Below are positions 3,938-34,715 of a stretch of 34,715 bases of DNA, piece by piece. Each line of letters opens with the position of its first letter. Position 1 is the first letter of the stretch. The position numbers and the translations under genes were made by a program. This DNA is from a virus. The DNA lies in IMG/VR virus record IMGVR_UViG_3300037586_000477, positions 1 through 34,715 of that record; one strand, written 5' to 3'. Under the pieces are notes generated by a model. That model worked only from the letters and a program-made list of their open reading frames with translations. It did not search any database and was not told where the DNA came from.

Positions 3938-5088
3938 TGGCCAAGAAAAGCAAACTAAGAAGCCGTAAAGAACAGAATCGTCTGAAGGGAGCTATGGCAA
4001 GCCCAAGCCTCAAGGTACATGAAGCTACTACAAGTCCACGTATTCGAACAATAACGAAATCAAGTAGACGATATAGGTTCGGTGCCAAGGAGGTGAAGTT
4101 CCAAGAAGAACAACCTGTGCCTAAGTTTAACTTTGGTATGGGCAGCATCATGTCCATGTTCGGAGGCGGTGCCTCTGGAGGAGGTGGAGGTGGAGGTATG
4201 CTTAGTGGAATAATGGGTAAAGGCGGTGGAGACACTGGAGCAACTGCAATGAGGGCCTTATCCAAACAAGGAGAAGAGAAGAAAGAAGGAGAAGCAGCGC
4301 CCCCACAAACAGAGGGTATGCCTGATCCAAAGGCTAATGCTGGAAGCATGCCTGGAGGTGGAGGTCGTGGTGGTCTTGCTGGTAAGATTCCTGGACCAGT
4401 AGGTATGATTATCCAAGCTGCTGATAAGAAACTAGATGAGCAAGGGGCTGCTATCGCTCCATTAAATGAGAGAGGCAGGCGCTTGAATAAGTATAAGCAA
4501 GGTGTAAGACAGTACGAAGGAGGTACACCATACTACACCGGCAATGAGGATATGGGCGGTATTGTGCAATTCCAAAAGAAGAACCCGCTTAAGAAGTGGA
4601 AGAATGTTGGAAAGGCAATGAAGATTGGAAGCTCAGTGGCAAGCGTATTGAACCAACCTGTCGACAAGGTAACAGGTGGAATGGCTACCAAGGGCACGAA
4701 CAACATGGCCTCATTAGGAAGCGCGATGGGGAATACTACTATAGGGGAGAAGGATTTCGGGGGATCTGCAGGAAACAAGCCAGTAGCTGCTGCTCCTACT
4801 AACCCTGAGGCTACTCAATTTATAGACCCAAATAAGTCCTATGGTAAACGTATGAGTACTGGTACCAAAGCAGGAGCTAGTGCAGATAATTTAATTGACA
4901 GCACTACCAACAAAGCTGGTATGGCTCCGACAACACCATTGACTACTCCTTCAAGCAAACGAGCTACAGGGGGCGCTACTAGAATTACGAATAAAGCAAT
5001 TATGGAGGGTGGTCTTGATCCTCTTGGTATACCAAAGCAGAAGAAAGGAACTAGGAAACTTAAACTTAAGAAGGCTAAGCGTAAGTAG
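3937..5088 (+). CDS. Gly-rich basic virion-associated protein, unknown function
   Basis: This 383-residue protein sits between portal and scaffold, a position held by an uncharacterised conserved gene in crAss-like phages. Both ends are strongly basic: the N-terminus starts MAKKSKLRSRKEQ and the C-terminus ends in Lys/Arg repeats. Residues about 66-100 are Gly/Met-rich (a run of Gly after FGGGAS), and Gly-rich, low-complexity sequence continues through the middle. It carries EEQPVP at 57-62 and NKYK at 184-187, motifs also found in the 716-residue protein downstream. Composition suggests a flexible, DNA-facing internal or portal-associated protein. No enzymatic motif was seen. The start overlaps the portal stop (TAATG); the stop is TAG. 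Confidence 0.75.
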   Translation: MAKKSKLRSRKEQNRLKGAMASPSLKVHEATTSPRIRTITKSSRRYRFGAKEVKFQEEQPVPKFNFGMGSIMSMFGGGASGGGGGGGMLSGIMGKGGGDTGATAMRALSKQGEEKKEGEAAPPQTEGMPDPKANAGSMPGGGGRGGLAGKIPGPVGMIIQAADKKLDEQGAAIAPLNERGRRLNKYKQGVRQYEGGTPYYTGNEDMGGIVQFQKKNPLKKWKNVGKAMKIGSSVASVLNQPVDKVTGGMATKGTNNMASLGSAMGNTTIGEKDFGGSAGNKPVAAAPTNPEATQFIDPNKSYGKRMSTGTKAGASADNLIDSTTNKAGMAPTTPLTTPSSKRATGGATRITNKAIMEGGLDPLGIPKQKKGTRKLKLKKAKRK

Positions 5089-5177: not shown

Positions 5178-6389
5178 ATGAAGGATGAGGAAACAGTAGA
5201 CGTCACCCCTGGTACGGGTGATGCAGAAAGCGATGGAGATAATTTCTTCGGTGCTTTCTTTAACGAGGAAGACGGTGAAGAAGGCTTAGAAGCTGAGGAA
5301 GTCGAAGAAGATCCAGAAGATCTGGAGGAAGATGAAGATTTGTCTGAGGATGAACCCGAAGATGATGAAGACGAAGCCGAGGATGAAGATGATCCTGAGG
5401 AAGAGGAAGAAGAGGATGAACCTGAAGACGAACCTGAAGAGGATGAAATCGTTGAAGAGGATAAGCCTACTAAGAAGACAAAGAAAACAAAGGAAGCAGA
5501 GCCAGAAAGCTTGAGTTTAGAAGATACTCTTGTAGACTTTGTTGAGAATGGGGTACTTGACGTATTAGATGAAGAGAAGGAGTATACACCGGATAACGAT
5601 GGTTTTAAAGAGCTTGTTACTGATACAGTAGAAGCAAGGGTTAAAGCTAAAGAAGACGAAAGACTTGCAAAGCAAGATCCTAGAGTTGCGGAACTCGATC
5701 AGTATCTGCAAGAGAATCCAGAAGGTGATATCTCTACTTGGGCACAAGACCAAGACCAAACGGATTACAATGAGGTAGACCATACAAACCCTGAGTACGC
5801 AGCGTACTTAATTGAAGATGATCTAACCCTACGTGGTTATCCAGAGGATGAAATTGCAGACACTATTGAAGGCTACAAGAGGGATAAGTCCTTAGGTAGA
5901 CATGCTTTAAGAGCGAAGCAAACGTTGATTAAGAAACAAGCAGCGGATAATGAAGCTAAGAGCGCAGCTCGATCTGCAGCAGAGCAACAACGGAAATCTG
6001 CCATTGTAGAGCAACAAAGGAAATTTGAACAGAAGGTTCTTAAGACTGAGAAGATTGCTGGGTTTAAGATAGACCCAAAAGAACGACAAGAGCTGGCTGA
6101 TTACATTATGAAGCCTCTTGATGATCAAGGTAATACTCAATTGATGCTTGATGAAGCTAATAACGGAGAGTCTGATTTGCTATACGCATTCATTCAGAAA
6201 CGTAAGTTAAACCTTTCGAAATTACAAAGAAAGGCTACGACTAAGGCTGCTATTAACTTTAAGAGAAAGATTGATAAGCACACAGATAAGAGTGCAAAGA
6301 AGTTGCCTAATCGAGCAGAAGAACACCCAGACCAAGGGCAAGATAACGGAGAAATAGATGACTCTGTATTAGGCACTTGGAACATGTAA
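5178..6389 (+). CDS. Acidic, scaffold-like protein
   Basis: This 403-residue protein lies directly before the MCP, the usual place for a capsid scaffolding protein, which guides prohead assembly and then leaves or is cut. Residues about 29-95 are almost wholly Glu and Asp, followed by a short Lys/Thr stretch (KPTKKTKKTK). Residues about 220-285 are Ala/Gln/Lys/Glu-rich and likely helical or coiled coil, and the last 90 residues are basic. A charged, helical, bipolar protein beside the MCP is typical of scaffolds, but I see no sequence motif that proves it. A less likely alternative is an internal acidic head protein. The ATG at 5178 follows an 89-base AT-rich gap. Confidence 0.65.
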   Translation: MKDEETVDVTPGTGDAESDGDNFFGAFFNEEDGEEGLEAEEVEEDPEDLEEDEDLSEDEPEDDEDEAEDEDDPEEEEEEDEPEDEPEEDEIVEEDKPTKKTKKTKEAEPESLSLEDTLVDFVENGVLDVLDEEKEYTPDNDGFKELVTDTVEARVKAKEDERLAKQDPRVAELDQYLQENPEGDISTWAQDQDQTDYNEVDHTNPEYAAYLIEDDLTLRGYPEDEIADTIEGYKRDKSLGRHALRAKQTLIKKQAADNEAKSAARSAAEQQRKSAIVEQQRKFEQKVLKTEKIAGFKIDPKERQELADYIMKPLDDQGNTQLMLDEANNGESDLLYAFIQKRKLNLSKLQRKATTKAAINFKRKIDKHTDKSAKKLPNRAEEHPDQGQDNGEIDDSVLGTWNM

Positions 6390-18269: not shown

Positions 18270-20420
18270 ATGGCAAAAGGAAATAGTAAATATACCGATC
18301 AAGGAAAGAAGAAGAATGCAAGGTATAAACGTAAGAAGTATCCTAGTGGTGTTCAATATGCCGAAGAACAACCAGAGCCAAATGGTTATGATGTAGCAGG
18401 AGAGACTACCCAATGGGCTCAAACTGGTGGTAAGATGGCAGGACCGGGCGGTGCTGTAGCTGGTGCAGCTATTGGACTTGGTTTAAGTTTGTACAACCGA
18501 AAGAAGATCAAAGAAGCGAATCGGCAGATCAAAGCTGAGAAGGAAGCGTACGAAGAGTTCGGAGGTTATGCTACCGATCCTAAACTTATGATGGATCCGG
18601 ATGCTACAGCCAAGAAAGGCTTGCGTTCATATAAAAGCAAGGTTACTAAGCTTTCCTCGAAGAAGGCTAATAAGATATTAGAAGACGGTTCTGTCTATGG
18701 CAAACGCCTATCAAGTAAACAGAAGCGATTCTTTGGTGCCATGGCTGAAGGAGGAGAATCCTCGGGCAATGGTGTAATAGAGATTGAAGGCAAGAATGGT
18801 GTTGGGGAGATCCACACTGATGCCGATTTCAATGTTAAAAGCGTTGGAACCACTCCACATACTAAAGGTGGAGACAAGGTAAAAGCTGCTAAAGGCGATG
18901 TTGTTTTCAATACTCAAGGTAAGCCTGAGAAATTTGATAAGGTTATGGGTAAGATAAATCGCTACAAGGCTGGAGGAAGTAAGATTCCTATAGAACAAGA
19001 GAGACGTAAGTTACCAACCGACGATGCCCCAAAGAAAGTAGATGGAGATGAGAATGTCGTTCCAGGCTCTGCTCCATTCATTCCTCAACAGGTAATGGAC
19101 GACAAACGGGCTGGAGTCGCCCCTGTAGAAGATACACCAGGTAATGCTCCAGCTATGGCTCCTTTCGTAGAGAGAGGAACCTTGGATGAGGAGTTTGGTA
19201 ATCCACAAGGAATTGACTATGATCCCAATAAGCAACGGTTAGTATATGACCAAGAGATGCAGAAGTCTTTCGATGATGTATATCAAACAGATAATCCATA
19301 TCATGCTTTCCTAGCTAACCCAGAGAACCAAAAGCAATTTAAAGCCTTTCAGGAAACTGAGGCCACAGATCCTACAGGTACTTATAAACAATTCCAAGAC
19401 TTCATGGTTGGTCAAGGAATTAACTCAGGAGATTATCTTCAATATCTTAGGGATCAAGGATTAGATCCAGGCACTGAAGGATATGGTGTTGGAGATGCGA
19501 GAAACTTGGAAACTAAGAGTTTAGCTGCTTCTTTACGATACATGGATCAATATAATAGTGATCAAAGTGTATTGGATAAAGGTTTGTATACTGTGGAGGA
19601 TTTACCTCAAAGTGTACCAACAAGTCCTGCAGATGCTGCCACTCTTACTGAGGAAGAAGTAGAAACGGAAGAGAAAGAGACTGGGAAAGGGAAGGCTAAG
19701 AAGGTAGGTAAAGCTATCACTGATAAGCTTTCTCGTAATGCCAATGTCATGGGGAACTTATTGGATTCCATGGGGGGTATTGAAGGATACAACAAGAGTG
19801 CCTTGAAACTTAATCGATATAAGTATCAAGATCTTTCTGCTCCTCAAATAAAGGAAGCCAATGTTGCTGGTGCTATTAGAAGAAAGAACCGAAGAGGTTT
19901 AGTTGGATCTAAAGGCCAACAAGTATCCCAAGCTGCACAAGACGAAGTAATGATGCAGAAGGCTAAGGAGCGTATCCTTAATAAAGAAATTGAGAGAAAG
20001 CTTAGAATTGAGAATGCAAATGTTGATCTTAGTAATGCTGAACGTAAGTTCGCTGCTGGAGAAGATGTTCGAGCTAAGGACATAGAACGAATGCAGAGAG
20101 CTAAGAACCGTAAGTTTGGGAGAGCTGCAACAGCAGAACTTACCCAGATGCACAACATAGACAAACAGCGTGAGTATATGATGAGCCGGGATGAGAAGCT
20201 TTACGCTCGGGATAATATGCTTGCTAGTATTCTAGGAAGTAGATCATATGATTTAAATGTTACTAGAGACGCTGAGGGTAAGTATAATAAAGATGTAGAA
20301 AAGACGCTCCGTGAGCCATATAGAATGGGTATTGTAGAAGACGAGAAGAAAGAAGAAGCAGAAACACCTAAGACTACACAACCAGAGAAGAAGAGAAAAG
20401 GTACTAATCGATATAAGTAA
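18270..20420 (+). CDS. Virion internal or cargo protein, Gly/Ala segment and NRYK motifs
   Basis: This 716-residue protein lies directly after the muzzle, where crAss-like phages encode cargo proteins stored in the capsid or tail and ejected with DNA. The first 30 residues are Lys/Arg-rich (MAKGNSKYTDQGKKKNARYK), then EEQPEP (32-37), a Gly/Ala hydrophobic stretch near residues 50-72 (GGAVAGAAIGLGLSLY) and LSSKQKRFFGA at 147-157. A segment at about 176-236 (GEIHTD, TPHTKGGDKVK, GDVVFNTQG) looks like a small beta domain. NRYK occurs at 230, 515 and at the very C-terminus (713-716). The rest is helical and charged. The function is inferred from position; the stop overlaps the next ATG as TAATG. 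Confidence 0.65.
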   Translation: MAKGNSKYTDQGKKKNARYKRKKYPSGVQYAEEQPEPNGYDVAGETTQWAQTGGKMAGPGGAVAGAAIGLGLSLYNRKKIKEANRQIKAEKEAYEEFGGYATDPKLMMDPDATAKKGLRSYKSKVTKLSSKKANKILEDGSVYGKRLSSKQKRFFGAMAEGGESSGNGVIEIEGKNGVGEIHTDADFNVKSVGTTPHTKGGDKVKAAKGDVVFNTQGKPEKFDKVMGKINRYKAGGSKIPIEQERRKLPTDDAPKKVDGDENVVPGSAPFIPQQVMDDKRAGVAPVEDTPGNAPAMAPFVERGTLDEEFGNPQGIDYDPNKQRLVYDQEMQKSFDDVYQTDNPYHAFLANPENQKQFKAFQETEATDPTGTYKQFQDFMVGQGINSGDYLQYLRDQGLDPGTEGYGVGDARNLETKSLAASLRYMDQYNSDQSVLDKGLYTVEDLPQSVPTSPADAATLTEEEVETEEKETGKGKAKKVGKAITDKLSRNANVMGNLLDSMGGIEGYNKSALKLNRYKYQDLSAPQIKEANVAGAIRRKNRRGLVGSKGQQVSQAAQDEVMMQKAKERILNKEIERKLRIENANVDLSNAERKFAAGEDVRAKDIERMQRAKNRKFGRAATAELTQMHNIDKQREYMMSRDEKLYARDNMLASILGSRSYDLNVTRDAEGKYNKDVEKTLREPYRMGIVEDEKKEEAETPKTTQPEKKRKGTNRYK

Positions 20421-23416
20421 TGCCAGTTAACGAACATGATGAGCCGTATGTAGTTCCACACCAACAAGCTTATACAAGCCAGTATGTGCAATTACCCTTT
20501 CAACAATTACAGAACTATGCAGATAGAAGTCAACAGACCTTCGACGCTGCTGAGCAAGGAGAGAACAGTATACGCCAAAAGCTTTATGCTGCTCAGGCTT
20601 TGAATAAAGACAAAGCCCTTCGTAATGAGATTCTGAATAAGTACGAATCAGACATGGTAAAGAACCTTGAAGCTGTAGGAGGTGACTATGCTATGGCCAT
20701 ACCTAGGATTAAGGAGCAAGGGCGACAAATGAACGAAGACTTTACTCGGGGAAGGCTTGGTGCCATCGTTGGAAACCAACGCGCTGCTCAAGCGTATCAA
20801 CAGGATTTACAAACTAAATATAATGATGGGAAGATAACCCTCACTCAATATAATGGTTTGGCTGGGATGTCTATGGCCAATTACCAAGGAGTACAAGATG
20901 CCCTACAATCATCTGGTGTTTACAATAGTTTCAGTGGTATTTCCGCTGCAAATAAAGTAGATATCGATGCAAAGGTTGAAACACTTATTAAAGACTATGC
21001 AGCAGACAAATGGGACTCAAGCCAATACCAGAAAACCTTAGACGGGGGATATAGATTTCTTACGAAGAATGGTTGGAAAGAGGTACGAGCAGAAGATGTC
21101 TATAGAGATGTAGAAGGTTCACTTAGAAATGATAAAGAAGTAATGGATTACCTCAGTCAGCTTACTATGATTGAAGGACATCAAGCAAAGCAAGCGGGTA
21201 AACCTTTTGATGCAGAATCCTCTTTAAATAAGCACATACGTCAATATGCTTCCAGGGGGGCATCTAAAGCAGGTTTTCGTGAAGCGTATAACCAACAAGA
21301 AGACTATAAGGCTGATGAATATAAACTTGCTCGTTTTAAGGCAGGCTTAGAACATGAGTATGAGATGGTAGCTGATGATATGCAATACCAATCGGAAACG
21401 ATGTCTCAGAACAACGTCTTGACACATGCTACTAATTATCAAGGAGATAAGGTAGATGGAGTTGAAGGCTTAGACTTTAACCTTGCTCAATGGGACAAAC
21501 AAGGAGCCAAAGCTCTTAAAGGCTTTATCCATGATTTGGATATAGACGTAGCTACACATCGAACCAGTTCTGATTATGGTAAGTATGTTGCTCAACTTGA
21601 TAAGCTTAAGCAGATTATGGAAGGAGAGAATGGATACATTGAAGTATATAAGATGCTTCGTAGTCCCGATCATGGAGGTATTACCTTCCTTTCAGAAAAA
21701 GAAATTAATGAAGCTGTAGCAACGATGGACGGCTTCATGAATAATAGGGCAGACGCGCTTAATCTTAAGAAACAAGCAGAAGCAATAGCCATGGAGAAAA
21801 CTGGCTATGATCCTCAGAAAGACCACAATGCAGGTATGGCAGCAGCAGCAAAGTATGCAGCAACTAGCCTTAAGGATCTACCAGAGGGATTAACTGCTCA
21901 GAATGTTCTTGATGCAGCCTTTGGAACTGGTGATGGAACTTGGAAACGAGAACGAGATGCTGATTGGGTACAGAAGCCTTTAGGTAGATGGGGGACAGCT
22001 ACAGGCATGGAAGGCGATACTCGTATAGTCAACACTAAGACGGGTAAAATTTATACATTACCTAAGCGTGAAGATATGCGAGACGCTGATGGTAGAATGA
22101 CAAAGAAGAACATACTTGTACAACTTGATGAGGCTTATAAAGGGGCTATTGATATAAAAGCAAGGACAAACTATAATAAAGCCGTCGACAAGTATTTAGA
22201 TAGTGATGAAGTAAATGTGTACCAAGCTGGAGGAGGCCCTGTAGGAAGTATAGGCCCTGGATATGTACAGAATGGAGCAACAGGAGAATGGGAGCATAGT
22301 GAAGAGCAGGCGTTAAAGAACACTAAGGCAGCTAATAATTATTGGTTTCAAGATCCTAAGAAGGGAACACTTCATCAAGGTAATTGGATAGGCCTCAATG
22401 GTTTCATACTTACGCCTGATGGTATGAAAGAAGGAGGCATTGTAGATCTTCTTATGGAAGAGGTTGATTTAGATCCAGATGATGCTGAGGATAGACAGAA
22501 GTTCTTTGAGAATGCTAGATCTAGTTCTCAACACTTAAGTAAGGCTCCTACTCTTAGATACCAAGGACAGCCTAGACGCTTCTATGAATTTAAAGTAAAC
22601 TATGGGGGCAATACAGGTGTAGTTAAGGTTCCGGCCACTACTTCTAATATTACAAGCACCTCTATTCAAGAAATGATTAATAACCCAGCAGAGCAAATAC
22701 TTACTAGGGTTTATGATATGCGATCTAAAGGAGTTAAGGTTTCTCGTTGGGACCAACATCCAGACGTCATCTTTGATATGACTAAGGAGAAGAATAAAGT
22801 AACAATGCCTAATCCTTATGTTAATGTTAAAGGACATAAATGGCAAGGACAAGCTACAGTAACTGTAGATTTACAAGAAGCTATTCCTGCTCTTACTGGG
22901 TTTATAGAAAAGAAGAAGCATGGAACGTTGGATAAAGGGTATCTTAATGAATTAAATGATGCCCACTTTGAAACAAATTTGGCTCCACAAGCTGATCCAA
23001 GACAAGTAACCGCTGCCTTTAATAAAGTTAAGGTGAATACACATGGAAATATAGACTTCAATAGTATGGCACATGCTAGGAATACAGCAGCAACACACCC
23101 TAATACTATTGAACCTAATTCGTACTATCGTGTTTCAGATGAATCTGGCACTCCTCAGAATGTATTAGGGGCAGATATCTTAAGTGAAGGAAGCGGAACT
23201 CAAGAGAAACAAGATTACCGAGACTATGTACAAGAATTGATGGATGACGGTATGAGTAAGAACTGGGCTATAAGCAGAGCAACTAAGAAATTTGGACATG
23301 CTTATCCTATTGCTGAGCCCCAAACTGTACAAGGAGCACAAGAACGAGTAAGGAATCCTAATGATCTTTATCAATTCAGTCCATATGAGGCAGTGAAAGA
23401 AACTTTCTTAAATTAA
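20420..23416 (+). CDS. Large internal virion / cargo protein
   Basis: The 998-residue protein is mainly helical and Gln/Lys/Glu-rich. Its N-terminus (YVVPHQQAYTSQYVQLPFQQ, then a Gln/Asp/Ala helix and YAAQALNKDKALRNEILNKY) resembles the start of long internal proteins encoded next to crAss-like tail genes. Residues about 60-130 contain IKEQGRQMNEDFTRGRLGAI, a further family-like pattern. No catalytic motif, signal peptide or clear membrane segment was seen. Placement between another internal protein and the virion RNA polymerase suggests it is packaged and perhaps ejected. The start overlaps the previous stop; a 42-base gap follows. Confidence 0.62.
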   Translation: MPVNEHDEPYVVPHQQAYTSQYVQLPFQQLQNYADRSQQTFDAAEQGENSIRQKLYAAQALNKDKALRNEILNKYESDMVKNLEAVGGDYAMAIPRIKEQGRQMNEDFTRGRLGAIVGNQRAAQAYQQDLQTKYNDGKITLTQYNGLAGMSMANYQGVQDALQSSGVYNSFSGISAANKVDIDAKVETLIKDYAADKWDSSQYQKTLDGGYRFLTKNGWKEVRAEDVYRDVEGSLRNDKEVMDYLSQLTMIEGHQAKQAGKPFDAESSLNKHIRQYASRGASKAGFREAYNQQEDYKADEYKLARFKAGLEHEYEMVADDMQYQSETMSQNNVLTHATNYQGDKVDGVEGLDFNLAQWDKQGAKALKGFIHDLDIDVATHRTSSDYGKYVAQLDKLKQIMEGENGYIEVYKMLRSPDHGGITFLSEKEINEAVATMDGFMNNRADALNLKKQAEAIAMEKTGYDPQKDHNAGMAAAAKYAATSLKDLPEGLTAQNVLDAAFGTGDGTWKRERDADWVQKPLGRWGTATGMEGDTRIVNTKTGKIYTLPKREDMRDADGRMTKKNILVQLDEAYKGAIDIKARTNYNKAVDKYLDSDEVNVYQAGGGPVGSIGPGYVQNGATGEWEHSEEQALKNTKAANNYWFQDPKKGTLHQGNWIGLNGFILTPDGMKEGGIVDLLMEEVDLDPDDAEDRQKFFENARSSSQHLSKAPTLRYQGQPRRFYEFKVNYGGNTGVVKVPATTSNITSTSIQEMINNPAEQILTRVYDMRSKGVKVSRWDQHPDVIFDMTKEKNKVTMPNPYVNVKGHKWQGQATVTVDLQEAIPALTGFIEKKKHGTLDKGYLNELNDAHFETNLAPQADPRQVTAAFNKVKVNTHGNIDFNSMAHARNTAATHPNTIEPNSYYRVSDESGTPQNVLGADILSEGSGTQEKQDYRDYVQELMDDGMSKNWAISRATKKFGHAYPIAEPQTVQGAQERVRNPNDLYQFSPYEAVKETFLN

Positions 23417-23458: not shown

Positions 23459-26400
23459 ATGCCAGAAAACAATAAACCTACGAGTATAAAACCTACTGTT
23501 AATCCATTATTTGGACCAGGAGAAACTGAACTAGCTATTAATCCTTTGACTAGGCTTCCAGTAGAGGCCCCGAAGCGAATGGATAGACGAGAGCAGGCTC
23601 ATTTCCAAACCACCATGGATCAAGTCCCTGACCTACAACATGTCAAGGACTTAGGAGACTATACAGAATATGGTGTTTCTATGTTTCCACAACTGGAGCA
23701 TAATTGGAAAACAGAGCAAGCCCAAAACCAATCTGGATGGGAACATGCCTTGGGCTTCCTAAACCAAGGAGTTGTAGGTGAAGTTGTAGGAGGTATGATC
23801 GAAGGCTTTGGTTGGCTTGGTGAATACAATACATGGGCTAATATATCTAAAGGCGAAGAGGAAGAAGTGGGCAATTTCCTTATTGATATAGGCGAAGGAA
23901 TACAAGATTGGACTAAAGAGGCTACACCTATTTATGAAGATCCTAATGCCTCTGCTTGGAATCCTGCATCTTCTGCATGGTGGGCATCTAAAGGTACTAG
24001 TGTACTTTCATTCGCTTCTATGCTTATTCCTGCTGCCGGGGCTGTAAAGGCCATAGGCGTTGTAGGTAAAGGCTTAGGTATGCTTGCTAAAGCAGCAAAG
24101 CTTGCCAAAGGCCTAGGGAAGTTAGGTAAAGTTGGTAAGGCTCTTAAAGGCGTTCAGATGTCTGCAAAGGGATCGAGAATGTTGAAACTGGCTGGTAAAG
24201 GTATGGCACAAGCTGTAGTTTCCAGACACATTGAGAATAATATGGAGGCCTCAGGTGTCTTCAAAGAACAATATGATAAGTTTATCTCTGCTGGTTTAGA
24301 TGATAAAGAAGCAAAGAAATTAGCTGGTGAGGCTGCACAGGATACATATGTAAGGAATTGGGCCATGCTTGCTCAAGATATTCCCCAGTATATGCTAATG
24401 GGTAGTAAAGTTAAATTAGGAGGCTTTGCCGAGAAAGCTTTAACCAAGGCAGCAGGGGCTACAGCAGCGAAGGCCTTAACTAATAAGTACCTTGTTACAG
24501 GGCTCTCAGAAGGCTTAGAAGAATCCTTCCAATTCTGGGTAGGAGAAGAAGCCAAGTATCTAACAGATGTAAAGGCTGGTATAGCTAAGGAGTCCTCACA
24601 TGGAGAAAGGATGAAGAAGTATCTCAAGAATGGAGAACTTTGGACATCGTTCTTCTTCGGTGCGTTCGGTGGTATGGCTATGGAAGGAGCAGGGCCAGGT
24701 ATAAAGAAAGTAACGGAAGGAGCAACTGAGAGGTTATCTACGATGCCTGCTAAGGGCTTGCACCATCTAGGGGCTTCTATTTCTGCTATTGCTAGAAAGA
24801 CAGGAAGGAATTTATTCTATAGTGATGCTATTAAAGCTGCTGATGAATCTGGAGATAAAGAAGCTAGTACCTACTTACGAAAGAAGTGGAATATAGATAC
24901 AGCTATCGACCACTTAGACCAGGATACATTTGCTGGCTATATGGAAGATATAGAGAACTTTAGTGAGACAAGTAAAGAAGATAAAGAAGAATTTGCTGAG
25001 AAGCATGGATTGGATCCACAACAATTATTGGACTTACAAACTAACTATGCTTCTTATATCAAAGATGCTGGACAAGCTAAAGAAATATATGACGGGTATA
25101 AGAACGATGGCTATGCGGAAGCTACTTTAGCTCCAATGGTTATGAGAGCTATGGATGCCCAAATCGCTTCTGATTTAAGTATTCAAGCCTCTGAACAAAT
25201 AGTGAATAAGTCTGCTACCCGAGGTAAGGAATCTCTTACTCCCGGTTCAGGAGAAGCCGTTTATAGTGCGAGTATCGAAGTTCGTCGTATCAAAGAGGCT
25301 CTTAAGGTATACTCGAAGGAGGCTAAGAATAAAGGAACAGGAAAGGCTCGACAAGAAAGGGTAAGCAAACGAGTAAAGGAACTTACCTCAGAGCTTAAGG
25401 ACGCAGAGAAGGTTCTAGTAGAGGCCAACGCTATTGAAAGAACTGCAAGCGAGAAACGAGCTGACGCCCGAGTAATAAAGCGTGCCCTTTCCGAAAGGGG
25501 CTTGTTCAAGGCATATAATACTAAGGAGTATAATGATATGCTAACGGAAGAGGCTCAGGATGAAATTGATCATCTTCAAGGAGATGCGATCCAGAATGAG
25601 CATAAGTATACTACCGACGTAAACGAATTAATTAATGCAAAGGATAGAGGAGAACATAATCAAGTTGTAGACAAGATAAGGGAGAAGTACGGAGAAGCTA
25701 TACCAGAGCCTATAGCTAAAGCAATAGCTGGTACTTCTAAGATGATGCAACTCAGGGAGATGCAAAGCTCTGAGAAGAAGCAAGCGAATGCAAATGAGAA
25801 GGGCATAGCTGAGAAACGTGAGGAGATTAAGAATGAAACTGATTTAACCAAAGCCGTTATGGATGCCGATGGCATGCGTAAGGATATGGGAGAAGAAGGG
25901 GCGTCTGCCTTGGAAACGGAACAAGTAACTAGTACTGTCTCAACTAAACAGAACATAGAAGGAGCTACTAGGGCTTCTGATGCCGTAGCAGCATCTAATA
26001 CGAATGATGAGAACCCAGGCTCAGCAGAACCAACAACCAATTCTGTGCCTTTGCCTAAGGTTACGAAGTCCATGAAGGATAGTATGCTTTCTTTCAATTG
26101 GACCTCGGCACGTAATGGAGGGTCTACAGACTCTGCTAATCAAGTACTTACAGATCTATTAGAAGACCCTAAGTTCAAAGCTGTTGGTACTAAGCTTGAA
26201 TTGGTAGTAGAAGGAGATGGTATTAGAGCCATACTTTTAAATGCCGATGGCGAATGGATAACAACCAACGATAATCCAGTTGGTCCTCTATTACATATGC
26301 CGATCGATCAGAAAGATAATCCTAATTTCACTTCTGGAAAGCGGGCTGAACTAGGAGCATTGATCGCCCAAGTACGTGAGGCATCTGAGAAAGGCTTGAG

Positions 26401-29400
26401 AGTCTTCACAGAGATCACCAAGCGTACAGGTGGACATAAGCAACTAGGATTAGAACCGATATCCATCAGGGAGATAGAAACAGCTACAGGGGCTCCTGCG
26501 AAACTTATGGTTTCCTTAGGAACTTCATTGATGTATCATAATGGTAATCCCGTAACCGATACGGATGCTACTGGTACAGGTGGGGCTATATACTTAGAAA
26601 CTAGGGATATTGAAGGGAACTTGGTTCCTATGAAATTGGATGCTTCTTACTTAACCAGAGAAGAAGCAAACCTTATGGTGGATCTCTATACAGATTTCCA
26701 GAACAGGAACACCTGGTTCAATACACCAGTAGCTGATAACCCAATGGTTGAGGGCCTTACTTATGGACAAGCTTTCGAATTGCTTGCGTATGAAGGTTCT
26801 AAGACAGCGAATACCATTATAACAGATGAGGAAAGCGAAGATTATGGCAAGCGTAAGGATTTATACTACAATAAGAATACTAAGTCGCTTCATTTCGGAG
26901 CTAAGGCTATTCCTATTGATAAGATAAACGAAGTTCGAGAAGACATCGTTGATTGGATGATGGCTATGGTGCCGAGATATGCTTCCATTAAGAAATTGAA
27001 TCTTCCTATGAGTGAGTGGGCTACTAGAGACGGACGTACGTCTACAGCCAAATTCTCTTTCATGGGAAAGGACTATACAGTTAAGGATAAGTATAATGAC
27101 TTCCTTATCGATAGTGAGAAGTACTTAACTAATCTCTCACCAAACGATGGTAAGTTATTTATCCAACCTACTATCGAATTCTCTTCTACTTTAGATATAG
27201 AAGAAGAGACAGCTCAAGAACCTGTTGTTCCTACGCCAGAACAGACAAAGGAAGCAGGAGGAGACACTAAGGAAGCCAAAGCCCCAGATAATCCATTTGG
27301 TGGAGTAAAGCGTAAGAAGACAGGCTTTAATCTAATGGCTGCACCTAGTGGAGGATATACTATAGCTAATATGGCTGAGGAAAGAGCTTGGCTTGAAGCC
27401 GTTCTTCCGAATGTTCCTGTAACAGTTATAGATGGCTTGATTAGAATGGCTAATAAAGGCGGTCGTGCTTACGGAGCCTATGTTAATGGTATGATACAAC
27501 TTTCCAATATAATGGAAAAGGGCACAGCTTACCATGAAGCCTTCCATGCAGTATCTCAATTGTACTTATCTGAGAATGAAAGAACTGAATTATATGAGGA
27601 AGCAAGATCTAAGTATGGAACTCCTACACAAGAACAGCTTGATGCTCGAAAAGTAGAATCGGAGCAAGATTGGTTTGAGGAGAAGCTTGCTGATGATTTC
27701 AGAGCCTTTGTACACTCTGAGGGAACCATGAGCTTCCATCCTAAGGCCAAGAGCTTCTTTGGAAAGCTATGGGAGATGATCAAACACTTGTTTGGTTCTC
27801 GTTCTAAAGTAGATCAAGTATTCGCTAAGATCAATAGAGGATACTATGCTACTGCTCCAATGTCTGGAAGAGTAGCCAAGATGACCAATAAGGCTTTATA
27901 CAATAGAGCCGATAATTTAAATGTAAGTCAATTCTATGACATAGTTGATACGATTACATTCTCTGTAGTCCAGGAGTCAAAGTTAATGGAGACTGAGGAT
28001 ATTTCAGCTCTTACTATGGAGGCTATCAGCACTGATGCTATTTCCGGACATCTTGCTACATACTATGATTTGGCAATGGAGGCTAATAACCTAACTACAG
28101 CCAATATCTTTATAGCTGCTAATGCTGATGTAGACGCTATAAGGTCTGCAATCTTAGATAAATTTAATGAGATGCAGTTAGAGGTCAACCCAGAGGTTCA
28201 AGCTATTCTTGATACTGATGACCTCACAGAGGAAGAGAAGACTGAGAAACTGAATACTAAGTCAGCTTTCGAATACTCAGGTAAGGATAATGCCACTGGA
28301 AACGTTAAGCTTCTACTTTCCATGGTTCCTAAGCTTAAGAGCACAGACTTGATAGAACAAGAAGATGGTAGTGTTGTTAAGGATTACGAAATCAATCCTA
28401 ACACTGGTCTTCCTAGATTAGCATATGCTGCTTCTACTTGGGCAGCTTTGGCTAAGTCTTTATCTGGTATTGTCGATAGCTACATATATGAAACAGGAGA
28501 ACTTACTACAGCTTTCGATAAGATGCTTGTAGCTATGGATGAGTTGACAACAACTCGACCAGAAATCTCCATCCTAACTGCCAAACTACGGGACCCTGCA
28601 TACCCAATGCATAAGAAGATTCAATTCTTCAGTGCCTTCTCTAAGGCTAATATGCAATACTATACAGCTAGATTTAAGAAAGAAGGACAGATCAAACAAT
28701 TTGTCTTTAGTAAATCTGAATCAAGGAGCCCAGCGGAGCAAGTAAGAAATGAGTGGGTTCAGAATTTCAGAGATAAGATGTATGCTTACTCTGGAGACCA
28801 TATGGCTTTAGATAGTGAACCTTTGACCTTTGCTTACTCTCTTATGGTTTCTCTTAAGGAAGATGTATTGGAGGCGATACAAGCTCGAAAGGAACTGAAT
28901 GTAGAAGTACCAGTAGAAGAATACAAAGAGCAATTGTTCCAAAGCTTGAACAGTGTTGGTATCGAGCTTTCAAGGCCTGCCTTTAATTATTGGATGGAAG
29001 GGCGTCCTGGAAACAACGAAGATCAACGCTTGAAGAATGCTGTTACAAAGGTTGCTATTATGTTTGAAAGTCCTACAGGGCTTACTAAGGTTATTACAGA
29101 TGGTGCCGAAGGTAAGAAACCTTGGGTGAAGAGCGAGAAAACCGCATTAGCTTTAGCTGAAGTAGAATCTCTATTTAGAGAAGACCTCTCAGAATCTGGA
29201 GTACTTGGAGCAGATAACTCTATGTACTATACATACTCATTGAATAACTTCTTGATTAAGAAGATTCAAGAGATAAAGAATAACGATGAATACCTTGAGA
29301 AGTTAAGCAAGATTCCAGGTAATGCTAATGCTATTTGGATTTCAGAGCTTCTAAACAATAAGAAGACTAGAGAAGAGTTTAACTATAACGTATTCAATAA

Positions 29401-32400
29401 CTTACGTGAGGAAGCAGCAGGAGATACGGGAAGTAAGTTCTCTGATCTTAAGCCTGCAGATGAGTTAGCTTTAAGGATTAACCAAACACTGCAAGGCAGG
29501 TACTCATTGCTTACTGCTGCGGATAAAGGTGTATACACTACCATTACTGGCTTTGCCCCTAAGAAACTTGAGTTAGATTTCAGGGGAGATGATATAATCT
29601 TCAACAACGTATCCACAGTAGATATCATAGGGAATTACTTCATAGATGAACTTGCTAGAATGTCTCAAGCTTGGAATGAGGTACATGGGCCTAATGCTAT
29701 CCCTGTAGAGCAACAAGTAGAGCATTACCATAAAGGTAAACGTCATGCTTTCAAATCTCAATTATTTCCTTCGCTAAGCCCGATCGAAATTACCGAATCG
29801 GGAGAGGTGGTGGATAATATAGATTTGGATGTAGATACGCTTGAGCTTATTAAGACATACATTACCTCAGATAATAATAAACCTACTTGGGGAACAAAGA
29901 CAGTTAATCAACTAAGACCAAAGGTAGAAGGCCTTCTTAAGCGATTAGCTGAGAAAGAGATAGACCTAGCAGTGCAGACAGGTGTCCTTCAAAAGCAAGG
30001 AGGCAACCTTATTAATGTGGGGTTAGATACTTCTGTGCTTAAGACCTTTAGAAAGAAGGGCGCTACAGATACTCAGGCAATCAAATCTATGATGGCTGAT
30101 TATATGGTTAATTCGTTGATTGCCCATGTAGAAACTGGAAAGCTATTCACTGGTGACCCTGCTTACTACAAGTCTCTCGATGACTTGAAGAAGCGTGTAC
30201 CAGGAATTATAGCTCCAGGGCAAGACCTATTCATCCATCCCGCAGAAAACGGAAGAGAGAGACAATTCTACAATGTAGCCATTGTAAAGGACATCGAAGA
30301 AAACATGGCTGTAACGCAGCCTGAGGTCTATAAAGGGTATAAAGATGCTTTAATAGAATCAGGAATGTCTGAATCTGAGGCAGAAGAAGCCTTAAGTCCT
30401 TACAGAGAAATTAATGTAGCAGATGCTCAGGCATATGTTACTATGGAACGATATAAAGACTTGTTGCAAATGCTTGGTAAGTGGAGGCCTTCTATGGAAG
30501 CCCCTTTCGATAGATTAAGCAAAGGAGAAGAAGTAGTTGCGGAAGACGTTAGCTTATTCCTTCAACCATTGAAAGGGATGTACTATGATCTAGTGCCTTC
30601 ACCAACTGGTAATCGTATGCAACCGGTCTACCTTAAGTATTCTTTGGCTCCATTGATCCCTGGCATGATCCGTGGAACCAAGATGCAAGGTGTCTTGGCT
30701 GCAATGAAACGAGATAAAGTACAAGAGCTTGTATTTGAATCAGGTATCAAAGTAGGAGCAAGGGGACAAGTAGACATCAAAGATGCAGACCTCAAGTTTA
30801 ATCCAATAGAACTTGATAATCGTAACTGGAAGTTACAACAAGATCTTTCTGCTAAGTATTTGAAGAAAGGAGAAGCTATTGAAGGGTCTCAAGTACTTAA
30901 GAATGCCTTAGCGAATATCAATCCTTCGGCAATGTATGGAGATAAGGAAGGCGCTCAACTCATTGAGGAGTTTGTAGCAGCTGATAGATACCTATCTGAT
31001 CTTGGTGCCGAAAGCCTTAAGAAGGAATTTGGTGTTACTTTAGATGAGAAAGGAGGTATTGTTTCTATTGATAAGAAGAAATTGTACCCAGTACTTATTA
31101 AGGAACTCAAAGCAGAAGCTCCTAAATATGTACTAGAGGCTTTAGATAGAGGTGTAGCCTTAGATGCCATACCTCAATTCCGTAAGAAGATCCAACAGAA
31201 ATTGCTCTCAATGGTTACAGCAAGGACTGTAAGATTGAAGATGCCTGGAGGATCATTTGTACAAATGTCTCCAGCAATGTTTGAGGCAATTACTGGTTCA
31301 GATATATATAAAGAATCGGACATACTTTGGTTAACGGATGGTACTGCGTTATTACCTCCTAGAATAGAGGACGGAATAAGTAAGCCTGGACAAGTACTTG
31401 TACCTCATAGCTTGGTTAATAAGTATCCAGGATTTATGGATATGACTAAAGCTGAACAAATTAAGCTACTACGTCAAGCTCAAAAGGAAGGACTATTAGA
31501 GGGTGTTGGGTACCGTATCCCGAATCAGGATATGGCTTCTACAGATTATCTGGAGGTTGCTGGTGTTCTACCAGCGTATATGGGAGATACTATCATAGCC
31601 TATTCAGCCATTACCGCGAAAACAGGCTCTGATTATGATATCGATAAGATGTACTTCATGCTTCCTAACTTTGATCTTAAGATCAATAAGAGAGCAATGA
31701 GAAAGGACTTCTTAGAAAACAATAAAGGGCTTTTCGATACATTACGTGAGGAGGCACAGATTAAGGATATGGATAATTCTACTTTGTTTAAGTCTATACA
31801 AGAACAAAGCAGAAGTGGTCTTGATCTTACAGAAACAGAACAAGCTTTAGTAAAGGCTTGGAAAGATATGAATAAGGAAGACTATGTAAGTGGCATCACT
31901 AAGACGCCTTCTTCCTTAGACAACAAACGGTCTGCACAGAATTACAAATTAGATAGGTATAAGGAGATTCTTCTTGCTAAGGAAACCTTTACTCGATTGA
32001 TTTCTCCTATCGATGCTGAATGGTTAAAGAATGACACAAAGAAGATCAGAGAACTACTTGGTCAAGAGACTAAACTTGGAGATCTTGAATTCTTTTCTGG
32101 ATATGAACAATATGTAACCAAGCGTAAGTTCGCTGGGGGACAACATGGTGTAGGACAAACAGCTAATCACCTAGTTGATCATGTTCTTACTCAAATGGCT
32201 GGAGTATTCCTTACAAGAAACTTTGGCTTGGGGCATGGTTATGGGGATGCTACTTCTGTTGCCGAAACTAAGGAATTAGATGGTTCGAGATATATTACTT
32301 CAAACGTCTCTGCTTACATGAATGCGTATGTAGATATAGCTAAAGATCCATATATCTTTGATTTGAACAATAATACGTTCACAGCGAATACAGTCTTCTT

Positions 32401-34715
32401 GCTTATTAGAATGGGGGTAAAGCCTGAATGGATTAATCGATTCACGACCCAACCTATCATCAAAGAATACACAGACCTTACTTTAAATAGTGAAGGTAGA
32501 GTAAACGAAACGCAGTATGATGATGGTAAGCCTATTAAGCCTATTGATATCATTAAGCAAATGGAGAAGTATGCGGTGAAAGAGGTGATACCTTTCTCCA
32601 ATGATAGCATGCCTTCTAAGAAGACACTAGAGGCTCAACTAAAGGATCCAACTGCAGCTACACAACGTCAATTGTTGTCCTTGTTCTTAGAACTTCAAGA
32701 GTATGCTAAGGCATTGAACCTACAATTACGGGCATCTAAAGCAGATACCAAAGGAGCTGGAAGAACTTTAATGGAAGCCTTTATTGCACAGAATGTAAAG
32801 CTAGAAGCCTTAGCGAGTCCATTGATAGAGAATGTCGATCGTAAGTTCGATAGCACTATGTTGGGAACATATTATGATAACTCAGTCCTTCTTTCGCTCC
32901 AAGCATTTGGTGGAGAGTTTATGGGGATGTCTAAAGCTGTACAAGGAACTGTTGAGAAGATTGGAACTATGACCGGTAAGTTTCCGGTTACTGATCTTGA
33001 GATAGCTACTCTTATTGAGAATGAGGCGTACACGTACTTAATGAAGGACTTTCCTTTATTCCAACATGAGAACCCACGTAGCTTATTCTTTGGTAATACA
33101 AGTACAGCTAGGGCCTTAGAAGCTCTACAGAAAGGAGAAGACTCTCCAGTTAAGGAGAATTTGCTAATTAGAAACTTACAAGTAAATCGAGGAGAAGGGC
33201 TTGATCCAGACTTCATCGACATTGCTGGATCAAGTAAGAAGGATAAGCAAGGACAAGAAGCCTTAAGTGAAGCATGGTATGATCTTATTACTCATCCAGA
33301 TGAGGTTATCTCAAACTTTGGGAAAGAGTTGATTACTTATGCTTTCCAAACAACTGGTTTGAATCAGACAGCTTCTGCTTTCTTTGACTTAATGCCTCCA
33401 AGATTCTTAGAGGAGCATAAGTTCAAGGAGTATGTCAGTGGTATGAACTCTGTTGTTCAGGAGACGGCTGGAGGAGTAGGCTACCTTGATAACTTCGCTG
33501 GTCGATTCCTTCGAAATAACTGGGCCAACAATAAGCTTGTGCCTGTAGCTTCTGATATGGCCAAGCAATCAGTCAATAATTATCCTGAATCTATTGCTTT
33601 CCGTATTCATGAGAAATCGTCTAACTATGTTGTAGGTTTAGACGAGAATGGTAGGAAGGTATTCTATCCATACCTCAAGACAAAAGCTTCTCTATTTCGT
33701 CTACAGGGATATAAAGACACACTTAAAGGTAGAACCGCTATTTATTCTAGAGCTACGAAACGTGGTCTAGATGCAGGAAGATATAAGATCAAAGACTACA
33801 ATAAGCGTCCAATGGATTTGGATGACACCTTAGGCGTTCAATTAATAGAGGGACAAGACTATACTACTAAGTATATGCCTCCTATGGAGCCTTTTACAGA
33901 GGATGAAACACAAGAACAACGTTTCTCTTCTATGGCTGCAGAAACTATGTCTGGTCTCCATACTAAGATAGAACTAGTTCAAGGGCTATTTGATGCTGAT
34001 TTCGTATTGGATGAGACGCTGCCAGGAGTAGCTAATGTGAAGCCTGGAACTACAGGAAGACCTTTGATTACCATCAATCCTATCAAGATGAAGGAAGATA
34101 CGGTTATCCATGAGGTAGGCCATATCTATATCGATTCATTAGGAGGCATGGGAGACCCTTTCATACGTGCTGGGGTTGAGCAATTGAATGGTTCTGTAGC
34201 AGAACAGATTGTAACTAAGAACTATCCTAATATGACAGGAGAAGCTAAGAGCAAAGAAGTTCTTGCTACTGCTATTGGTATGGAAAGTGCTAAGCTCTTT
34301 AATGCAGAGGTACACAAGAAAGGAAAGTGGAATAGGTGGCTTGTAGGCCTATGGTCTAAGGTAAAGGCAATGTTTGGTATCAAGCCAAATGTAGCTAAGC
34401 AGATGGCTAGGGAAATCCTTACTGATCGTATTCGAAAGGGAGAACACTCTTTATCGGAGTATACCCAAGAACAACGTGACGAGGCTGCACAAGACAATAT
34501 GGATGATCTCGATGCAGTGCAATCGCTTCTAAATAGACTTAAAGCGTCTATGCGTCTTAAGATCAATATCCATGAGAAGAAGACAGAGGCTGCGCACAGT
34601 AAGGAGACTAAAGAGTTGAGAGAGGCGCACTTAGCGAAACTTGAAGAGCTTCTTGGTCAAATTGAGAAGGCTCAGAATTATGAAGGCTTGCTCTTATTTA
34701 TCGAGAAAGCACAGA
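23459..34715 (+). CDS. Giant virion RNA polymerase polyprotein with two zincin domains (partial, 3' end outside window)
   Basis: The frame was followed codon by codon from ATG 23459 to the edge, at least 3752 codons without a stop. Order of parts by residue: N-terminal region with Gly/Ala/Lys hydrophobic stretch (about 179-250) and a second (SFFFGAFGG, about 397-410); helical coiled coil (about 600-800); flexible linker (about 800-870); unknown globular region (about 870-1240); acidic Pro linker (about 1242-1290); zincin 1 (H1359); long unknown region; crAss-type RNA polymerase core (recognisable from about 2214) with DYDID at D2725/D2727/D2729; zincin 2 (H3551). In Cellulophaga phage phi14:2 the homologous polymerase is a packaged enzyme that transcribes early phage genes. 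Here it is fused in one much longer chain. Self-processing is inferred, not shown. Confidence 0.9.
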   Translation, partial: MPENNKPTSIKPTVNPLFGPGETELAINPLTRLPVEAPKRMDRREQAHFQTTMDQVPDLQHVKDLGDYTEYGVSMFPQLEHNWKTEQAQNQSGWEHALGFLNQGVVGEVVGGMIEGFGWLGEYNTWANISKGEEEEVGNFLIDIGEGIQDWTKEATPIYEDPNASAWNPASSAWWASKGTSVLSFASMLIPAAGAVKAIGVVGKGLGMLAKAAKLAKGLGKLGKVGKALKGVQMSAKGSRMLKLAGKGMAQAVVSRHIENNMEASGVFKEQYDKFISAGLDDKEAKKLAGEAAQDTYVRNWAMLAQDIPQYMLMGSKVKLGGFAEKALTKAAGATAAKALTNKYLVTGLSEGLEESFQFWVGEEAKYLTDVKAGIAKESSHGERMKKYLKNGELWTSFFFGAFGGMAMEGAGPGIKKVTEGATERLSTMPAKGLHHLGASISAIARKTGRNLFYSDAIKAADESGDKEASTYLRKKWNIDTAIDHLDQDTFAGYMEDIENFSETSKEDKEEFAEKHGLDPQQLLDLQTNYASYIKDAGQAKEIYDGYKNDGYAEATLAPMVMRAMDAQIASDLSIQASEQIVNKSATRGKESLTPGSGEAVYSASIEVRRIKEALKVYSKEAKNKGTGKARQERVSKRVKELTSELKDAEKVLVEANAIERTASEKRADARVIKRALSERGLFKAYNTKEYNDMLTEEAQDEIDHLQGDAIQNEHKYTTDVNELINAKDRGEHNQVVDKIREKYGEAIPEPIAKAIAGTSKMMQLREMQSSEKKQANANEKGIAEKREEIKNETDLTKAVMDADGMRKDMGEEGASALETEQVTSTVSTKQNIEGATRASDAVAASNTNDENPGSAEPTTNSVPLPKVTKSMKDSMLSFNWTSARNGGSTDSANQVLTDLLEDPKFKAVGTKLELVVEGDGIRAILLNADGEWITTNDNPVGPLLHMPIDQKDNPNFTSGKRAELGALIAQVREASEKGLRVFTEITKRTGGHKQLGLEPISIREIETATGAPAKLMVSLGTSLMYHNGNPVTDTDATGTGGAIYLETRDIEGNLVPMKLDASYLTREEANLMVDLYTDFQNRNTWFNTPVADNPMVEGLTYGQAFELLAYEGSKTANTIITDEESEDYGKRKDLYYNKNTKSLHFGAKAIPIDKINEVREDIVDWMMAMVPRYASIKKLNLPMSEWATRDGRTSTAKFSFMGKDYTVKDKYNDFLIDSEKYLTNLSPNDGKLFIQPTIEFSSTLDIEEETAQEPVVPTPEQTKEAGGDTKEAKAPDNPFGGVKRKKTGFNLMAAPSGGYTIANMAEERAWLEAVLPNVPVTVIDGLIRMANKGGRAYGAYVNGMIQLSNIMEKGTAYHEAFHAVSQLYLSENERTELYEEARSKYGTPTQEQLDARKVESEQDWFEEKLADDFRAFVHSEGTMSFHPKAKSFFGKLWEMIKHLFGSRSKVDQVFAKINRGYYATAPMSGRVAKMTNKALYNRADNLNVSQFYDIVDTITFSVVQESKLMETEDISALTMEAISTDAISGHLATYYDLAMEANNLTTANIFIAANADVDAIRSAILDKFNEMQLEVNPEVQAILDTDDLTEEEKTEKLNTKSAFEYSGKDNATGNVKLLLSMVPKLKSTDLIEQEDGSVVKDYEINPNTGLPRLAYAASTWAALAKSLSGIVDSYIYETGELTTAFDKMLVAMDELTTTRPEISILTAKLRDPAYPMHKKIQFFSAFSKANMQYYTARFKKEGQIKQFVFSKSESRSPAEQVRNEWVQNFRDKMYAYSGDHMALDSEPLTFAYSLMVSLKEDVLEAIQARKELNVEVPVEEYKEQLFQSLNSVGIELSRPAFNYWMEGRPGNNEDQRLKNAVTKVAIMFESPTGLTKVITDGAEGKKPWVKSEKTALALAEVESLFREDLSESGVLGADNSMYYTYSLNNFLIKKIQEIKNNDEYLEKLSKIPGNANAIWISELLNNKKTREEFNYNVFNNLREEAAGDTGSKFSDLKPADELALRINQTLQGRYSLLTAADKGVYTTITGFAPKKLELDFRGDDIIFNNVSTVDIIGNYFIDELARMSQAWNEVHGPNAIPVEQQVEHYHKGKRHAFKSQLFPSLSPIEITESGEVVDNIDLDVDTLELIKTYITSDNNKPTWGTKTVNQLRPKVEGLLKRLAEKEIDLAVQTGVLQKQGGNLINVGLDTSVLKTFRKKGATDTQAIKSMMADYMVNSLIAHVETGKLFTGDPAYYKSLDDLKKRVPGIIAPGQDLFIHPAENGRERQFYNVAIVKDIEENMAVTQPEVYKGYKDALIESGMSESEAEEALSPYREINVADAQAYVTMERYKDLLQMLGKWRPSMEAPFDRLSKGEEVVAEDVSLFLQPLKGMYYDLVPSPTGNRMQPVYLKYSLAPLIPGMIRGTKMQGVLAAMKRDKVQELVFESGIKVGARGQVDIKDADLKFNPIELDNRNWKLQQDLSAKYLKKGEAIEGSQVLKNALANINPSAMYGDKEGAQLIEEFVAADRYLSDLGAESLKKEFGVTLDEKGGIVSIDKKKLYPVLIKELKAEAPKYVLEALDRGVALDAIPQFRKKIQQKLLSMVTARTVRLKMPGGSFVQMSPAMFEAITGSDIYKESDILWLTDGTALLPPRIEDGISKPGQVLVPHSLVNKYPGFMDMTKAEQIKLLRQAQKEGLLEGVGYRIPNQDMASTDYLEVAGVLPAYMGDTIIAYSAITAKTGSDYDIDKMYFMLPNFDLKINKRAMRKDFLENNKGLFDTLREEAQIKDMDNSTLFKSIQEQSRSGLDLTETEQALVKAWKDMNKEDYVSGITKTPSSLDNKRSAQNYKLDRYKEILLAKETFTRLISPIDAEWLKNDTKKIRELLGQETKLGDLEFFSGYEQYVTKRKFAGGQHGVGQTANHLVDHVLTQMAGVFLTRNFGLGHGYGDATSVAETKELDGSRYITSNVSAYMNAYVDIAKDPYIFDLNNNTFTANTVFLLIRMGVKPEWINRFTTQPIIKEYTDLTLNSEGRVNETQYDDGKPIKPIDIIKQMEKYAVKEVIPFSNDSMPSKKTLEAQLKDPTAATQRQLLSLFLELQEYAKALNLQLRASKADTKGAGRTLMEAFIAQNVKLEALASPLIENVDRKFDSTMLGTYYDNSVLLSLQAFGGEFMGMSKAVQGTVEKIGTMTGKFPVTDLEIATLIENEAYTYLMKDFPLFQHENPRSLFFGNTSTARALEALQKGEDSPVKENLLIRNLQVNRGEGLDPDFIDIAGSSKKDKQGQEALSEAWYDLITHPDEVISNFGKELITYAFQTTGLNQTASAFFDLMPPRFLEEHKFKEYVSGMNSVVQETAGGVGYLDNFAGRFLRNNWANNKLVPVASDMAKQSVNNYPESIAFRIHEKSSNYVVGLDENGRKVFYPYLKTKASLFRLQGYKDTLKGRTAIYSRATKRGLDAGRYKIKDYNKRPMDLDDTLGVQLIEGQDYTTKYMPPMEPFTEDETQEQRFSSMAAETMSGLHTKIELVQGLFDADFVLDETLPGVANVKPGTTGRPLITINPIKMKEDTVIHEVGHIYIDSLGGMGDPFIRAGVEQLNGSVAEQIVTKNYPNMTGEAKSKEVLATAIGMESAKLFNAEVHKKGKWNRWLVGLWSKVKAMFGIKPNVAKQMAREILTDRIRKGEHSLSEYTQEQRDEAAQDNMDDLDAVQSLLNRLKASMRLKINIHEKKTEAAHSKETKELREAHLAKLEELLGQIEKAQNYEGLLLFIEKAQ
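23993..24208 (+). other. Membrane-active-like Gly/Ala/Lys segment of the giant protein
   Basis: Residues about 179-250 start with a hydrophobic run (SVLSFASMLIPAAGAV) and continue as a repeated Gly-Lys-Leu pattern (VVGKGLGMLAKAAKLAKGLG). This is like amphipathic or pore-forming helices. Such a segment could help pass the protein through the bacterial envelope. Confidence 0.45.
27476..27853 (+). other. Zincin-type metallopeptidase domain 1 (within giant protein)
   Basis: HEAFH at residues 1359-1363 is the HExxH zinc site. E1408, in EEKLADDF and 49 residues after H1359, is a likely third ligand. A trailing GKLWEMIKHLFG has its Trp at 1438. A strand (MIQLSN) precedes the HExxH. Confidence 0.75.
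30098..32788 (+). other. Single-chain RNA polymerase core (within giant protein)
   Basis: Recognisable blocks by residue: LFTGDPAYY and DDLKKR (about 2230-2245), DAQAYVTMERYKDLL (from 2322), PVYLKYSLAPLIPG then RGTK, EGVGYRIPNQD (about 2682-2692), GSDYDIDKMY with the metal-binding DxDxD at 2725-2729, KRKFAGGQHGVGQTAN (about 2888), AKDPYIFDLNN (from 2961) and QPII. The DxDxD corresponds to the magnesium-binding aspartates of double-psi beta-barrel RNA polymerases. Confidence 0.87.
34046..34408 (+). other. Zincin-type metallopeptidase domain 2 (within giant protein)
   Basis: HEVGH at residues 3551-3555 follows a strand (LITINP) and KEDTVI. E3600, in KEVLATAIG, lies 49 residues after the first His. 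VGLWSKVKAMFG follows with its Trp at 3632. Spacing mirrors domain 1. Confidence 0.75.

Follow-up and report, generated by a model that had tools for sequence, protein, structure and literature searches.

The window, the whole stretch of 34,715 nucleotides of viral DNA analysed here, carries the marker genes of Crassvirales, its terminase, portal and major capsid protein matching PHROGs 6681, 6547 and 11589 (E 3e-72 to 1e-128). It also carries the gene order of that group, with matches to Cellulophaga phage phi14:2 gp74-gp71 and gp68 lying in order and including IHF, the tubular protein, the stabilisation/muzzle protein and cargo genes. These are followed by a giant open reading frame, and the 998-aa gene just upstream of it probably encodes a further cargo or ejection protein (Table 1).

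Table 1. Features of the locus and modules of the giant protein. Positions refer to the window, except where locus L002 (a second contig, described below) is named; residues are those of the giant protein.
Feature	Position	Strand	Basis or remark
716-aa gene	18270..20420	+	Weak similarity to crAss001 gp45 (cargo protein C1); Cys = 0
998-aa gene	20420..23416	+	Similar to phi14:2 gp68; Cys = 0
Giant ORF	23459..34715	+	3752 codons in window; in-frame cysteine codons = 0
N module (residues 83-387)	23705..24619	+	Homologue of phi14:2 gp67 N-terminal part; profile 286 bits
Hydrophobic stretch within N module (residues 185-203)	24011-24067	+	Hydropathy
Z1, zincin-like (residues 1268-1474)	27260..27880	+	HEAFH at 1359, conserved downstream Glu
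RNA polymerase R (residues 1562-3441)	28142..33781	+	Homologue of phi14:2 gp66 / PDB 6vr4
Conserved core of R (residues 2212-3092)	31631-31645 (catalytic DYDID)	+	
Z2, second zincin-like (residues 3484-3822, cut by window edge)	33908..34714	+	HEVGH 34109-34123
C module (residues 4039-4721)	Outside window, L002:15473-17521		

Extent and modules of the giant protein

From ATG 23459 (or TTG 23441) the giant frame continues without a stop to the edge of the window. The preliminary description had reported it as open there after at least 3752 codons, and a second assembly, IMGVR_UViG_3300025082_000005 (71,998 bp; locus L002), both confirms this and completes the frame. In their 34,390-bp overlap the two sequences differ by 32 substitutions, without any indel, and the six substitutions that fall within the giant ORF are all synonymous. 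Extending the contig located the C-terminus: the complete protein has 4726 aa (L002:3359-17539, with the stop at L002:17539), the window protein is its exact prefix, and the remaining 974 residues at the C-terminus are encoded past the window edge. Within the window part of the ORF, the phase of codon-position GC does not change.

Comparison with the second assembly makes an artefact very unlikely, given the absence of indels, the synonymous character of the ORF changes and the exact-prefix protein. Although both contigs are metagenomic assemblies and their samples are possibly not independent, homology continues through the joints in one frame, and the junction cysteines that split relatives carry (see below) are absent, as a true fusion predicts. 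We therefore find it scarcely credible that a sequencing or assembly error masks one or two stops between proteins that are really separate. The 32 differences cluster in short patches (window 389-671, 5222-5264, 33028-33038 and 34315-34348), which look like strain mosaicism or mixed-strain assembly.

Along its length, the giant protein is collinear with a run of three neighbouring virion genes of phi14:2, namely gp67 (N), gp66 (R) and gp65 (C), which bears out the earlier reading of a virion polymerase fused with other modules in a single ORF. In phi14:2 the same three proteins, all annotated as virion proteins, lie in the same order; unlike in the window phage, however, they are encoded by three genes (1797 + 2180 + 1421 aa), Z1 is lacking, and four Cys are present, all at junction ends. 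Similarity to gp67 (residues 90-391 and 1042-1181) is weak in pairwise comparison and reaches 286 bits by profile. Profiles were needed for the N module because tblastn with the N-terminal 1347 aa found no relative among named phages. Pfam and PHROGs, for their part, returned nothing useful for the window protein.

With phmmer, residues 1562-3441 match 6vr4 (phi14:2 gp66) over 1880 residues at E=2.2e-152, and the DYDID at residue 2725 aligns with DFDID 1361 of gp66, in agreement with the complete-looking crAss-type polymerase core described beforehand. From its full-length homology to the solved structure, R is expected to hold two double-psi beta barrels in one chain. The accompanying figure of about 2200 extra residues ahead of the core was overstated, since gp66 homology begins near residue 1560, which leaves about 1560 residues ahead of the polymerase protein proper. 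Residues 3710-4722 align with phi14:2 gp65, whose N-terminal part is the counterpart of Z2. In crAss001 and p-crAssphage, the N protein ends with the counterpart of Z1. In phi14:2 the C-terminal part of gp67 (about residues 1590-1690), which is the Z1 region in other phages, lacks HExxH and, judged by eye, includes a stretch that resembles an acetyltransferase.

A membrane-active module had also been proposed. Such activity is at most suggested by two single hydrophobic stretches of 19 residues each (185-203 and 4597-4615), but their number is no higher than in shuffled sequences and lies below the shuffled mean. No fold in the PDB significantly matched the AF2 model of the C module (mean pLDDT 81).

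Zincin-like domains and fusion architectures among relatives

The HExxH motifs at 1359 (Z1) and 3551 (Z2) are invariant or nearly so across the alignments. By sequence, we predict two protease-like (zincin) domains in the chain, one per joint, in keeping with the protease modules of the preliminary description. The comparisons of the Z1 profile with Pro-Pro endopeptidase (E=0.03) and of the Z1 and Z2 profiles with each other (59% probability) are both no more than suggestive. An AF2 model of Z1 (core pLDDT above 90) likewise had no significant structural counterpart in the PDB, the best match being PprI, a metalloprotease, at a probability of 0.10.

Relatives were collected via the polymerase core, 80 from viral contigs and 26 from genomes; a further 30 loci, including some repeats, and about 18 named phages were then added, and modules were mapped by profiles. 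N, R and C are separate in most surveyed relatives; N-R fusions are frequent, and R-C fusions are seen in Intestiviridae and marine contigs. Just two N-R-C fusions turned up in the survey, that of the window phage and that of a crAss-like Chitinophaga sp. YR573 prophage. In a FastTree phylogeny of the polymerase core, whose deep branches are unsure, the two have separate origins, and the N-R fusion state changes many times.

The Chitinophaga sp. YR573 element (NZ_FOJF01000001; IMGVR_UViG_2690315653_000003; L101/L136) encodes a portal and an N-R-C fusion of 5485 aa without Cys. It lies in a bacterial chromosome, its 76-kb IMG/VR record has a phage integrase close to one end, and it is apparently a temperate crAss-like prophage. 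Its ORF is, like that of the window phage, an N-Z1-R-C single chain, but it differs in its independent origin on the tree, its degenerate Z1 motif and the lack of a Z2 profile match.

Two-way fusions, such as p-crAssphage gp44 (R-C) and those of Suoliviridae cr4/cr114/cr56 and Flavobacterium phage Fpv3 (N-R), are likewise giant polymerase ORFs of 4000-5000 aa; in these, however, one break remains, with a terminal Cys pair. A giant two-way fusion and a zincin are already present in p-crAssphage annotations, and Crassvirales polymerase genes of up to about 6000 aa have been mentioned (PMC10136315). Two-way fusions were previously known in Crassvirales, and the three-way cargo fusion is new.

The preliminary description envisaged a delivery polyprotein that is packaged, ejected and then released. 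Its cargo part is supported through homologues: phi14:2 gp65-gp67 carry MS/MS-based annotations as virion proteins, gp47/gp49/gp50 belong to the virion cargo of crAss001 (PMC10172136), and homologues of the crAss virion RNA polymerase are known to travel in the particle and to act early in infection (PMC7886860, PMC10172136). The release part, in which the chain would be packaged and ejected whole and Z1 and Z2 would cut the joints, freeing the polymerase, fares worse. An HExxH domain does lie at each joint, and the share of loci with HExxH ahead of R is higher among N-R fusions (12/16) than among split phages (4/47). Zincins are present, however, also in phages in which N, R and C are separate genes and there is nothing to cut (Z2 in phi14:2 gp65, Z1 in crAss001 gp47), four fused loci, the Chitinophaga full fusion included, are without HExxH before R, and no cleavage site was identified in the chain. 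The protease is thus neither retained in every fused lineage nor tied to fusion. For these reasons, zincin release is possible in the window phage but unsupported as the reason for the architecture, and we regard a self-cutting chain as an unlikely account of it.

Coliphage N4 gp50 is a T7-like polymerase, and our solved-structure search matched 6vr4 only, with no N4 homology found. It is smaller (3500 aa) and yet similar in layout, being likewise an ejected single chain without Cys in which an N-terminal domain, a membrane domain, is followed by the polymerase and a C-terminal domain (PMC12633501). Thermus phage P23-45 likewise has its virion polymerase inside a giant 5,002-residue virion protein, but this is a tape-measure-protein fusion with the polymerase at the N-terminus and a very long tail (PMC10770324).

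Cysteines at the ends of cargo chains

Our counts show that the cysteines of crAss cargo proteins are almost exclusively at junction ends and are lost on fusion. The 4726-aa protein contains no Cys, where the rate in the other genes of this phage would predict about 52, and TGT/TGC codons are absent in frame from the giant ORF, while its two remaining frames contain 91 and 241 of them. In split relatives, nearly every Cys lies at a chain end that faces a missing joint, so that N has one at its C-terminus, R one per end and C one at its N-terminus. In phi14:2, for instance, gp67 ends in SNTIC, gp66 starts with MACK and ends in QECK, and gp65 starts with MSCK.

When chain ends were classed by module content alone and Cys was scored within 12 residues of the end, 260/264 junction ends and 1/140 free ends carried one, a contrast for which Fisher p-values overstate the evidence because the loci are related, although the cores are mostly only about 25-35% identical to the query. 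Internal Cys number 27 in 430,113 residues, and several additional ones occur in gut phages. The number of Cys per chain goes with architecture: 1 in N, 2 in R, 1 in C, mostly 1 in N-R, 1 in marine R-C and 0 in N-R-C. Fusions drop exactly the Cys pair that the fusion made redundant, most N-R fusions retaining the C-terminal Cys only, the marine R-C fusions L155 and L158 the N-terminal Cys only, and both full fusions none.

Other sources of such a pattern were considered and ruled out. Gene overlap cannot yield the terminal Cys, because the spacing of the joined genes ranges from -13 to 3499 bp and the N gene is on the opposite strand from R and C in crAss001 and DAC15. General Cys frequency does not account for it either, since in other ORFs of these loci the matching end windows contain a Cys in 13/187 and 31/187 cases. 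Post-hoc fitting of the rule is excluded by held-out loci that had not been used in forming the idea, in which 33/33 junction ends and 0/22 free ends had a Cys.

The rule holds in the isolates phi14:2, crAss001, DAC15, Fpv3 and crAss002. Two of the four junction ends without Cys belong to N chains with a Cys 31 and 17 residues from the end, and the other two to one polymerase gene (L067), which is interrupted by an intervening stretch. Apparent exceptions in crAss002 gp33 (L013/L169) and the cr110 R-C gene (L127) vanish if translation starts at an internal MSC, and the annotated starts of both genes are probably too early. Phage phi17:2 and the cyanophage Leptolyngbya phage Lbo-JY46 (L131, L130) have N and C homologues with the same terminal Cys, and among the proteins tested neither gave a significant polymerase-profile match. 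The 517-residue middle protein of phi17:2 has one Cys per end; scanning with the C module of Lbo-JY46 gave no hits. Among virion-region proteins, p-crAssphage gp47 (L124:5795-8368) and Fpv3 gp30 (L006:29912-31708) have a single terminal Cys with no identified partner.

Cysteine scarcity may be a general mark of ejected proteins, which are nearly free of Cys in N4 (0 in 4294 residues), P22 (0 in 1309) and T7 (1 in 2261). In all three phages these proteins are Cys-poor relative to the other genes of the same phage. In this regard, the giant ORF could be a plain gene fusion without functional meaning, low in Cys since cargo proteins generally avoid this residue, and it is true that fusion boundaries shift often in Crassvirales. 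A general depletion, however, leaves the contrast between junction ends and free ends unexplained, which makes this account distinctly improbable. A literature search, with key subscription papers outside its reach, found no report on Cys or disulfides in crAss cargo or in phage ejection proteins.

A proposed continuous cargo chain

The cysteine pattern points to the joined chain as the functional form. We propose, with a probability of roughly 70%, that crAss cargo is one continuous N-RNAP-C chain that is threaded N-terminus first, its links being disulfides in most phages and gene fusion in the window phage. The extra internal Cys of gut phages and the partnerless terminal Cys of a few other virion proteins count against this proposal. 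In its more specific form, which we also favour if with somewhat less assurance, N, the polymerase or another middle protein, and C would be joined by disulfides, threaded as a polypeptide of about 5000 residues and uncoupled in the reducing cytoplasm.

From their placement we infer that the terminal Cys of neighbouring chains are disulfide-bonded in split phages, where the C-terminal Cys of each chain would pair with the N-terminal Cys of the next. For phi14:2 this predicts bonds from gp67 Cys1797 to gp66 Cys3 and from gp66 Cys2179 to gp65 Cys3, giving a train of about 5400 residues. The virion would then hold an N-S-S-R-S-S-C train in the same order as the fused protein, in which N, possibly membrane-inserting, would lead and be followed by Z1, R, Z2 and C. 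Internal Cys would be excluded, we propose, because they would mispair. The train would pass through tail and periplasm N-terminus first as a continuous polypeptide, and its disulfides would be reduced by the cytoplasm. In the window phage and, independently, in the Chitinophaga prophage, fusion would substitute for the disulfides, no Cys remaining; the fused polymerase would then act tethered, as in the single-chain vRNAP of N4, or be freed by zincin. Published work on crAss001 resolved disulfides between other virion proteins, suggested equal copy numbers for the three large cargo proteins and proposed N-to-C ejection for the C1 protein (PMC10172136).

The terminal Cys might instead have a different role, for example in docking the ends non-covalently or through a metal bridge, or in attachment to other virion proteins, and be dispensable after fusion. 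Sequence cannot reveal chemistry, and terminal Cys occur also in a few other virion proteins. Two ligands per joint, however, are by themselves too few for an ordinary zinc site, and the 1-2-1 valence fits a linear chain rather than homodimers or a common partner; we thus consider this alternative rather unlikely.

Returning to the disulfide-joined chain, it would amount to a delivery device of general use whose middle car can be exchanged, because the N and C proteins of phi17:2 and the cyanophage follow the rule without a recognisable polymerase. If true, such a disulfide train would be a new kind of protein delivery. The fused ORF serves as a key to the whole order: it suggests a reason why three giant proteins travel together, and it would supply the order and direction of the cargo, N first. 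A covalent link is predicted in the virions of the cultured phages phi14:2, crAss001 and DAC15. The near-absence of Cys together with terminal Cys pairs is a rule that can be used to spot ejected proteins and to correct phage start codons. The proposed chain would explain how large polymerase-associated proteins are kept in register during ejection and separated in the cell.
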